Source: Candidatus Stoquefichus massiliensis AP9 (GTDB lineage Bacteria; Bacillota_I; Bacilli_A; Erysipelotrichales; Coprobacillaceae). Taken from it: a stretch of 46,634 nucleotides of DNA. Each line of letters starts with the position of its first letter. Position 1 is the stretch's first letter. Under the pieces are notes generated by a model. It had not been told where the DNA came from. It worked only from the letters and a program-made list of their open reading frames with translations, and did no database searches. Positions 11,776-29,441 of the stretch are shown here, piece after piece. The DNA lies in contig NZ_HG005295.1 in the NCBI RefSeq assembly GCF_000455285.1, positions 49,932 to 96,565 of the forward strand, in the 5' to 3' direction. Position numbers and translations under genes: made by a program.

Positions 11776-12408
11776 ATCCTCACCCCTTTTTACATCTGTC
11801 CCTTATTTTGTTTACATCTTACAGAATAACTATATCACATATTTGAAAAGAAAAGAAAGATATAAATATCCCTTCTTTAAAATCCTTTGTATTTATCTCA
11901 TTATTTTTACATTAATATATTTATTATATCATCTTTTTAAATTATATTGAGATTTATTCGGAATCAGAGGCTTTTCATCCGGAATCCGCCTATTTATCAT
12001 TAGTTTTTATCATATCACATATTTTTAATCTATGCGTAATTTGTAATCAAATGGTCAATTCTTGTAATCATTCGGTCATTGAACAAACTTATTATTATAA
12101 CATTTTTTCATTTAATGATGAGATTTATTCGGAATCAGGGGGGTTTCATCTGGAATCCGCCTATTTATGATTAGTTTTTATCATATCACATATTTTCAAT
12201 CTATGCGTAATTTGTAATCAAATGGTCAATTTTTACAACTATTCGGTTATTGAATAAATAATTTATTATATCATCTTTTTAAATTATATTGAGATTTATT
12301 CGGAATCAGGGGGTTTTCATCTGGAATCCGCTTTTTCATGATTAATTTTTTATCAATCTTACTCATCTGTTTCTTCTTCACTGATATGGTTTTCTTATGC
12401 CATGTCTT
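11776..12408. other. Intergenic region with promoter motifs and tandem repeats
   Basis: 633 bp without an intact gene. The part nearest the EIIB-like gene has an extended -10 motif (TGATATAGT on the minus strand, about 11834-11842). The rest is filled by the 171-bp repeat array and the decayed end of the TnpB-like gene. Confidence 0.7.
11918..12345. repeat. Tandem 171-bp repeat array (three copies, last one partial)
   Basis: The anchor GAGATTTATTCGG occurs at 11949, 12120 and 12291, exactly 171 bp apart each time. Each unit has two pairs of direct repeats spaced exactly 21 bp: C/TGGAATC at 11959 and 11980 (12130 and 12151 in copy 2), and TTGTAATCA at 12041 and 12062. Between them are minus-strand extended -10 motifs (TGATATAAT, TGATATGAT). 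The pattern looks like duplicated regulatory DNA, not a coding repeat or CRISPR. Confidence 0.8.
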
Positions 12409-12642
12409 CTAGGATTTCAGTATACCTCTGGCTTCACTAATAGCACTTAGTAGTAAATAGTCGCTTGTATGATAGATGTTCTTTAAATACTTTGGATTCA
12501 TCTTATGATCATAATATTCTTCTCTGTAGGCCTTATGAAGTATAGATTGATAGAGAACAATATCATGATGAACAGTCAATGCATCATCAAGAGATAAATC
12601 CTTATAATAGACACGCGTTGAAGAAATAGTGATCCTAAGCAT
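12409..12642 (-). pseudogene. N-terminal fragment of a TnpB-like (IS605 OrfB) transposon protein
   Basis: 77 codons: a basic, helix-rich N-terminus ending LLSAISEARGILKS followed by TAG. Reading through the TAG in the same frame continues for about 48 more codons with KTWHKKTISVKKKQMSKIDK, the kind of Lys-rich helix expected at this point in TnpB-type proteins, then stops at TGA inside the first 171-bp repeat unit. No RuvC or zinc-ribbon part is left. I read this as a nonsense-mutated, 3'-truncated relic. The family assignment rests on memory of similar N-termini and is moderate. Confidence 0.5.
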
Positions 12643-12665
12643 AATAGACTCCTTTCAGTAGAATA

Positions 12666-12754
12666 AAGAAAGGACAAAACAAAGACACATATCACATGCA
12701 TATTCATCTCATCCTCAAAAACTTCCGCACCCATATTATATCACAATCAGCAAA
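12666..12754 (-). repeat. Shared leader repeat, copy A (upstream of the TnpB-like fragment)
   Basis: About 90 bp similar to copies at 28751 and 29351. On the minus strand it contains an extended -10 box (TGATATAAT, complement of TATAAT at 12735-12740), then GGAAGTTTTTGAGGA, then a long arm pairing AGGA (12671-12674) with TCCT (12712-12715). Confidence 0.65.
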
Positions 12755-12795
12755 TATATTTCATAAATATTTGACGAATCCAAAATTCTTTATAG

Positions 12796-12822
12796 ACAAA
12801 AAAAGAAAGATATTTCTATCTT
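12796..12822 (-). terminator. Terminator of the sugar-acid cluster
   Basis: Stem AAGATA/TATCTT (12807-12812, 12817-12822) followed on the minus strand by TCTTTTTTTG. Confidence 0.75.
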
Positions 12823-12828
12823 CCTTGA

Positions 12829-27614: not shown

Positions 27615-28696
27615 TTATTCAAATATATAATCATCATGCATTAACAATTCATCAATAATTGAATAAATAATATCTGATGTTGAAAATAGGCTTATACAGC
27701 AAACTTTCTTTCCAGCATCTTTACTAGATGCTCCACAATGATAGATCTTTTCTGTATCTGTTTGATAATCTATAATGATAAATCTATCATGACATCTTTG
27801 ATTATTTTTCTTAATAGACAAAGTTGGATACTCTCTATTAAAATTATCAAACTCTAATTGATTTAATTTTCCACTACCTCTTCCCTTATTATCTGAGAAA
27901 ACAATAACATTAACTTCCTTTTTCTTTGCAGACAATAAAGATAAAGTATGACAATTAATATAATCATCTGCAATTAAATAGAATGTTTTGCTTCTTTATA
28001 GATATCCATATAAGCAACATTTGCTTCAAATGGCTGACTATCCTTAAAAACAAATTGTTTCAATTCTTCTTTAGGAATAAAACTATTTAATACTTTATTC
28101 ATAGAAGCTTTCATATCATTTTTAGTGACCATATTTTCTTTAATCCCATCAATTTCTGTCTTTAGTTCTTTATGACCATTGTACATTTCTTCTTTAATCT
28201 TTATGTTATCTTGTATTAATGAGTTCAATATATCTGTACTACCTAATAATTGTCTGTTTTCATTAATATAATGTCTCATCTTTTTAAATGTTCTCATAAT
28301 TATTAAACTCTGATGGACTGCAACTTCCCCTTTTAATACAGTCGCAAGCATATAAACACCTTGTTCAGTAAATGCATTAATTTTATAAGTTCTTCCACCT
28401 TTAATATCAAATGTCTGTATCGAGGTCGCAAATTGCGACCTCGATAATTCAAGCATTTCATCTTGCGTTAATGGAAACATAAAATCTTCTGGAAATCTTT
28501 CTTTATTTCTTTTGACTTGCTCATTAAGTCTTTTAACTTCATATCCATACAACTTCGCTAAATCAAAGTCAAGCATAACTTGTTGTCCACGAATTTCATA
28601 TATCATCCCTTGAATATCTAAGTCATTATATGACGGAAGAAATTCTTCTTGATTTTCTTTATTTTTCAATGCAATTGCTGTTTTGTCTTTATCCAT
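27615..28696 (-). pseudogene. ORF6N-domain/HKD-nuclease-like protein, frameshifted into two parts
   Basis: The 5' part (27974-28696, 240 codons) has the ORF6N DNA-binding-type domain of phage antirepressors: GQQVMLDFDLAKLYGYEVKRLNEQVKRN, SRSQFATS, INAFTEQGVYMLATVL. A coiled region then leads to QPFEANVAYMDIYKEAKHSI and a stop. The next frame, from about 27990 down to 27615, continues LIADDYINCHTLSLLSAKK and ends in a phospholipase-D-like segment CHDRFIIIDYQ...YHCGASSKDAGKK. Joined, they match the usual ORF6N plus HKD-like architecture. A deletion of 2 nt (or gain of 1) near 27975 explains the split. No slippery site is evident. Ribosome site GGAGG precedes the ATG at 28696. Confidence 0.75.
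28418..28446. repeat. Perfect 29-bp palindrome inside the ORF6N gene
   Basis: Arms TATCGAGGTCGCAA and TTGCGACCTCGATA around a single central A. On the coding strand it encodes the conserved SRSQFATS of the ORF6N domain. One arm set is kept, with a few changes, in the decayed copy at 28999-29021. Confidence 0.75.
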
Positions 28697-28750: not shown

Positions 28751-28841
28751 AACAAGGGGAGCAAAACAAAGCACATAAAATACATGTATCATTATCTTAC
28801 CCCAAACACTTCCATACTCTTAGTATATCACAATTAGCAAA
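28751..28841 (-). repeat. Shared leader repeat, copy B (upstream of the ORF6N gene)
   Basis: Similar to copies A and C. It has an extended -10 (TGATATACT on the minus strand; complement of TATACT at 28822-28827), the CTTCC block, and a long-range arm pair GGGG (28756-28759) with CCCC (28800-28803). Confidence 0.65.
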
Positions 28842-28959
28842 CAAAGAAAATGCTATAAGCAATTTTTTGCACAATTAAAAAAGGAAACTGACGCAAAATT
28901 TATTCAAATAGGCATACTCTTGTATATAATATTGAAATTATATTAATGGAAAACATGAA

Positions 28960-29275
28960 CAAATGACGACTTCTCCCTTTCATACCAAATATCTGCATCG
29001 AGGTCGCAAATTGTGACCTCACGAAATTTATTTCTTCTCTAGTTAATTAAACATAAAATTATCTAGAAATCTTTCTATATTTTTCTTACCTGTTGATTCA
29101 ATCTTTATATCATATCTATATAACATTGCTTAATTAGACTCAAGCCCCACTTTTTACCCTCGAATTTCATATACTATTCCTTGGATATCTAAATCGTTAT
29201 ATTTAAGAATAATAATTTCATTATCTGCCTTGTTTTTGACTGCAATTGTCGTTATGTCCCTATTTTCTCTATGTT
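28960..29275 (-). pseudogene. Decayed second copy of the ORF6N gene (5' third only)
   Basis: Aligned by eye with the 5' third of the gene at 28696: the palindrome region at 28999-29021, the segment around 29155-29200 matching the stretch that encodes GQQVMLDFD, and a segment near 29240-29265 matching the N-terminus. Several indels and stops break the frame. No start codon or ribosome site remains recognisable. The gap 28697-29508 holds this relic, leader repeats B and C, and otherwise AT-rich DNA in which I see nothing else. Confidence 0.65.
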
Positions 29276-29350
29276 ATTATCATCATTCTACTTACCCAAA
29301 TATATCTCTAATTTATTATTCTTGTGTTAATATATTTATAAAATAAAAAA

Positions 29351-29441
29351 AATAATGGAGCAATACAACGATACATCAACAAGATATATAATCATTTTAC
29401 TCCGAAATCTTCCATATTCACTGTTTATCACAATCAGTAAA
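29351..29441 (-). repeat. Shared leader repeat, copy C (upstream of the decayed ORF6N copy)
   Basis: Third member of the family. Arms GGAG (29357-29360) and CTCC (29400-29403) remain paired, but the -10 box is poor (TGTTTATCA on the plus strand), as expected for a decaying locus. Confidence 0.6.

Follow-up and report, generated by a model that had tools for sequence, protein, structure and literature searches.

Why should one and the same short sequence stand at three sites in a single stretch of bacterial DNA, each time before a gene of the accessory kind? The stretch (hereafter the window, by which we mean all 46,634 nucleotides analyzed) comes from Candidatus Stoquefichus massiliensis AP9, and the original prediction saw in it a common leader with covarying arms ahead of a TnpB-like fragment, an ORF6N gene and a decayed copy of that gene. 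In other words, is this a structured 5′ leader, a DNA element that travels, or a device that controls unrelated genes?

A Common Leader at Three Sites

The three copies are homologous. All lie on the minus strand, at 12669-12744, 28756-28841 and 29357-29441 (copies 1, 2 and 3), with a mean column identity of 77% in their alignment; copy 2 matches copy 1 across 80 nt at E=1.7e-8, and the local alignment score is 82, against 47 or less in 500 shuffles. They share one layout, a promoter (consensus TTTGCTNATTGTGATATAAT) followed by GGAAGT.TT.G and then by a hairpin of ~47 nt, the arms of which differ in sequence from copy to copy while their pairing is kept. The extended −10 that had been ascribed to every copy is present in copies 1 and 2 (it is seen as TGATATAAT and TGATATACT) and is degenerate in copy 3, and the TTCC block, conserved as claimed, is the opposite strand of GGAAG. 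Across the window's genome the promoter pattern TTTGCTNATTGTGATATAAT has 12 matches, and its reversed control has none. The parts, with the evidence for each, are as follows.

12735..12744, minus strand: extended −10 promoter element of copy 1 (TGATATAAT); copy alignment and pattern count
12669..12716, minus strand: leader hairpin of copy 1, terminator-like with a borderline score of −0.8; fold (z = −3.3), covariation over 26 copies and terminator score
28822..28841, minus strand: promoter of copy 2 (TTTGCTAATTGTGATATACT); copy alignment and pattern search
28756..28803, minus strand: leader hairpin of copy 2, GGGG/CTCC type, with a delayed U-tract and a score that is not terminator-like; fold, covariation and terminator score
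29422..29441, minus strand: degenerate promoter of copy 3 (TTTACTGATTGTGATAAACA); copy alignment
29357..29403, minus strand: leader hairpin of copy 3, GGAG/CTCC type, terminator score low; fold (z = −4.6) and covariation

Upstream of the −10 in several copies (28849-28862 in the window; L005 and L009 elsewhere) there is also a direct repeat, TTTGCTTAT(A/T)G, its units ~22 bp apart, which could be a candidate operator.

A Covarying, Strand-Specific Hairpin

Each window copy contains one hairpin of ~19 bp, with minimum free energy z scores of −3.3, −2.9 and −4.6 in copies 1, 2 and 3. Searching with a covariance model built from six copies turned up ~20 in the window's own genome, and another 10 came from the one congener examined. 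Over 26 copies, 95.7% of the stem cells are paired and two-sided changes occur at 8 of the 19 stem pairs (18 such cells, where 3.6 are expected), figures to be read with the knowledge that copies recruited with a covariance model lean towards the model's own structure. None of 500 shuffles reaches either the observed pairing fraction or the observed count of two-sided changes, and sliding the partners as a control lowers pairing to 41-62%. Most of the two-sided changes fall within the five basal pairs, and they divide the copies into sub-groups: an IS type with AGGA/TCCT and an ORF6N type with GGGG, GGAG or GAGG opposite CTCC or CCTC. The covarying arms are thus real, and paired changes are present in the further copies as well.

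The strand that would be transcribed folds better than its complement in 25 of the 26 copies (mean −16.2 vs −7.1 kcal/mol), the complement being weaker because the hairpin has so many G-U pairs. The structure is therefore more than a plain DNA palindrome, and its strand specificity is as expected of an RNA transcribed in the promoter's direction. Covariation and strand-specific folding together support the structured 5′ leader that had been proposed.

How far does this family extend? No covariance-model match was found among 41 genomes of other genera in the family, where the filters were stricter and weak copies could escape. The exact pattern had one match in the wider genome contigs, a coincidence with the Shine-Dalgarno sequence and start of an unrelated gene, and no match in viral contigs; a TnpB protein search of the genome contigs found no relative. 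The hairpin-leader family appears to be restricted to the genus. Rfam gave no match above its gathering score in the window (sub-threshold matches were chance-like), on which ground a known riboswitch or RNA family was rejected. A leader peptide was rejected too: the frame after an internal AUG has neither a constant length nor a constant sequence from copy to copy, and it is 5 codons long in the intact form of the element described below.

The Element That Carried the Leader

The congener shows what the leader belongs to: it is the start of a TnpB-type insertion sequence (IS) of ~1868 bp (~1.87 kb), found there intact four times, with proteins 90-100% identical to that of the query copy, and once more in interrupted form. 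Its parts run in the order left tip ATCTATTAAGAATTTGGATGCG, promoter, hairpin, GAAAGGAG, tnpB (~484 aa), structured 3′ region and right end, the ends being placed from the alignment of the copies alone. Within its leader, a short GGAAGTYTTCG stretch is followed by the GU-rich hairpin of ~47 nt and then by a U-rich tract before the Shine-Dalgarno sequence. The ~1868-bp element has one open frame and no transposase gene inside; the protein scores 33.7 bits with TIGR01766, just above the cut-off of 32, and 34.4 bits with guided_TnpB, under the cut-off of 100, and has no Pfam match. The 3′ region (~250 nt) is strongly structured (z=−5.0), and the right end has two small hairpins. The best explanation of these features is a genus-restricted, TnpB-only IS family of the IS200/IS605 type. 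The proposal of an element that travels was well founded, the leader being the 5′ end of a multicopy IS in the congener. We rejected the idea that the leader is ancestral to this type of TnpB, since the model matched nothing ahead of relatives from other genera.

The window's species retains only fragments of the tnpB-type protein, and in both genomes Y1 transposase is found as fragments only; near-identical TnpB copies have nevertheless spread in the congener. In the TnpB-like protein (L061, L063, L081, L082) a CxxC zinc ribbon is not evident, and the third of the RuvC acidic positions can be D or H; its nuclease may be altered. There is also a miniature element (L148, at G000:C2:279945, flanked by a KH-domain gene and rimM) that lacks both hairpin and tnpB and in which the left end and promoter of the IS run straight into its structured 3′ RNA region and right end; it is possibly a promoter-driven, guide-RNA-only element.

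Around copy 1 the window contains the following features.

12798..12824, minus strand: intrinsic terminator (hairpin and T7) of a GH1 (glycosidase) gene; the IS remnant begins directly after its U-tract
12780..12796, minus strand: left tip of a decayed TnpB-type IS (TCTATAAAGAATTTTGG), common to IS copies of both species
12647..12656, minus strand: Shine-Dalgarno sequence GAAAGGAG of the tnpB remnant, conserved in IS copies; start codon at 12640-12642
12334..12642, minus strand: decayed 5′ part of tnpB; protein 61% identical, with one internal stop

The TnpB-like fragment noticed behind copy 1 is thus a decayed piece of TnpB, and the whole IS fragment (~12334-12796, minus strand), whose tip adjoins the U-tract of the GH1 terminator, corresponds to positions 66-476 of the intact IS (73.7% DNA identity, E=3e-65). 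On sequence grounds, copy 1 is the decayed left end of a TnpB-type IS. In dead copies the hairpin is the best-kept part, at 83% vs 70-75% in the flanks, a difference that is partly ascertainment, since the copies were found through the hairpin.

The ORF6N Genes

27974..28696, minus strand: ORF6N gene, 240 aa, its frame broken before the C-terminal part; PF10543 (E=1e-34) and comparison with an intact 331-aa relative
27615..27935, minus strand: C-terminal part of the same gene, now detached (106 aa; PLD-like on visual inspection), which is 66% identical to the intact relative over residues 207-331 of the latter
28970..29286, minus strand: truncated and decayed copy of ORF6N that follows copy 3; a partial PF10543 match interrupted by 3 stops, its DNA 68% identical to that of the copy 2 unit

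The gene behind copy 2 is indeed an ORF6N gene, split into parts of 240 and 106 aa relative to the intact 331-aa protein, and the one behind copy 3 is, as had been said, its decayed counterpart; every ORF6N copy in the window's genome is decayed. The intact relative lies in the congener (L066:1650-2642), at a different locus and again behind this leader; it matches PDC-S05, which PADLOC lists as a candidate defence family (E=1e-108), and its C-terminal half is PLD-like. ORF6N, in both species, is the sole non-TnpB gene seen directly behind the whole leader.

How did it come by one? ORF6N as cargo of the TnpB-type IS was rejected, there being no match to the IS right end behind the ORF6N genes. 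A leader ancestral to ORF6N was rejected as well: upstream of ORF6N relatives in other genera nothing matches the model. Because there is neither a right end here nor a model match before relatives elsewhere, the ORF6N leader was probably acquired from the IS, after which leader and gene would have moved, or been duplicated, as a pair; comparing the leaders with one another does not decide the order of these events. The third ORF6N copy of the window's genome has no model match. Within the ORF6N coding region, and again in the decayed copy (~28392-28450 and 28990-29020), the sequence forms an inverted repeat (GAGGTCGCAAATTGTGACCTC type) reaching 29 bp, which probably arises from the codons of a conserved RSQFATS peptide.

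Position Behind Genes, and Terminator Scores

What, then, do all the copies have in common? Of 29 copies, 28 share their strand with the nearest gene upstream (p=1e-7); with TnpB left out, only 17 of 25 share it with the gene downstream (p=0.11), and most downstream genes are mutually unrelated. The constant feature is therefore a position after a gene, in that gene's direction, which fits insertion behind terminators. Control of unrelated accessory genes is not supported in the form first proposed: the constant neighbor is the upstream gene, copies with no gene to lead, named in the original prediction as a result that would refute it, do exist, and most copies are left-end remnants of one IS. 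Orthologous spacers are instructive. Between apt and rel the window's species has the hairpin and the congener an ordinary terminator; in the L059/L144 spacer the arrangement is reversed, with the hairpin in the congener. The hairpin is therefore not conserved there and occupies the place of the other species' terminator. At two sites an IS-type promoter occurs without the whole hairpin, directly before an AAA-ATPase_like gene (PF09820; L144, G000:C6:263937) and before an AlbA_2/Schlafen-type fragment (PF04326; L149/L009, G000:C4:217461).

We scored the hairpins with our own version of the classical hairpin/U-tract formula (d'Aubenton Carafa type), on which ordinary terminators nearby score −5 to +18. 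IS copies score +14.5 and +15.4, the congener's ORF6N leader +12.1, and the copies behind apt, L059 and L060 +11 to +15; for one IS copy, the congener's ORF6N leader, apt, L059 and L060, none of 40 shuffles scores as high. The same is true of copy 1 at its borderline −0.8. The copy at the end of glnB scores −22, copy 3 −16.5 and copy 2 −35, within the range of its own shuffles; for copies 2 and 3 such low scores agree with the decayed state of the ORF6N genes behind them. The stems are long and GU-rich, unlike those of textbook terminators.

Discussion

We think it fairly probable that the leader is an IS-borne terminator or attenuator, scattered with its element and kept as the leader of ORF6N genes. 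The hairpin would act as an intrinsic terminator or attenuator at the 5′ end of a TnpB-only IS, so that many transcripts, whether begun at the IS promoter or outside, would end there, and stopping there would keep tnpB expression low. The IS would land behind the terminators of host genes, in sense orientation, and then decay, and the hairpin would outlast it as a terminator of the upstream gene; promoter and hairpin could persist together as the leader of another gene (ORF6N), and the promoter part alone could persist before the AAA-ATPase-like gene. We infer that the hairpin terminates transcription in the cell and thereby limits tnpB.

The main rival, a control of the IS200 kind, would act on translation: the leader fold would hide the Shine-Dalgarno sequence and keep TnpB low, with the hairpin as its scaffold. 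The fold predicted for the intact IS pairs that sequence with a conserved GUCUUC lying ahead of the hairpin, which leaves it a probability of 0.05 of being unpaired, and the IS200 leader (PMC12594629) and ISPpu9 leader (PMC8450116) are precedents for such hiding. But the Shine-Dalgarno sequence is predicted to be free in the congener's ORF6N leader (0.98) and partly so in copies 1 and 2 (~0.4), and hiding it leaves the copies at gene ends unexplained; we regard this reading as unlikely. (A three-way switch, with 3′ arm, 5′ arm and Shine-Dalgarno sequence co-varying, was rejected, the cognate duplexes of 3′ arm and Shine-Dalgarno sequence not being the strongest.) Still less probable is a single-stranded DNA hairpin for transposition, a left-end structure recognized by Y1 transposase in trans, which an IS200/IS605-like element might lead one to expect; strand specificity and G-T pairing would fit single-stranded DNA of that strand as well. 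Against it, ~95 nt separate the hairpin from the left tip, with the promoter in between, the hairpin-less mini-element exists (a later deletion could account for this), and Y1 transposase persists only in fragments.

Could the leader instead be a dedicated regulatory device, riboswitch-like or protein-bound, that responds to a signal by controlling TnpB elements and ORF6N genes jointly? In its favor, the promoter is shared as well as the hairpin, ORF6N stands behind the leader in each of the two species, at loci that differ between them, and the single-stranded GGAAGTYTTCG is conserved. Against these points stand the lack of a model match at the ORF6N genes of other genera or at the third copy here, the lack of an Rfam family, downstream genes that are otherwise unrelated and often on the opposite strand, and gene-end copies that are not conserved between the sister species, and we give the idea the same slight weight as the transposition hairpin. 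Slighter again is the chance of an attenuator that answers a signal, for example a phage altering termination, and so releases the TnpB element and ORF6N (PDC-S05) together; if it were true, a candidate anti-phage gene would have captured a transposon's control switch.

An IS-borne terminator, as we prefer, would have relatives. Naville and Gautheret (2010, PMC2965389) described "mobile attenuators," species- or genus-specific 5′ terminators before IS genes, together with terminators of IS origin exapted before unrelated genes. Like these, our hairpin lies 5′ of an IS gene in several IS copies (four intact, one interrupted), with related copies before an unrelated cellular gene (ORF6N, in both species). 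Unlike them, it belongs to a TnpB-only IS, is long, GU-rich and covarying, travels with a promoter, and is found also at gene ends, occupying the place of ordinary terminators; termination here is predicted. In the IS200 tnpA leader (PMC12594629) a 5′ hairpin hides the ribosome site, and ours is likewise a long leader hairpin in an IS200/IS605-superfamily element that would lower expression; here, however, hiding is predicted in intact IS copies only, and the gene is tnpB, not tnpA. With IS1341-type (TnpB-only) elements it shares a lone tnpB-type gene, the structured 3′ region of ~250 nt and the small right-end hairpins, from which it departs in its divergent TnpB without an evident zinc ribbon and its added 5′ leader. 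The structured 5′ leader of ISPpu9 in Pseudomonas putida (PMC8450116) lowers IS gene expression too, but that IS is of a different family and works with two small RNAs. The mobile attenuator as a kind is already known; this hairpin-leader family appears to be unreported, no earlier report having been found in a search that covered part of the literature.

That is, covariation and the synteny of sister species show an IS-borne unit of promoter plus hairpin that has been scattered and has outlived its element, standing where ordinary terminators stand and coming before a candidate phage-defence gene. If termination holds, the family would offer a clean test of attenuator exaptation, and it would add expression control to TnpB elements, so far studied mainly for their 3′ guide RNA.
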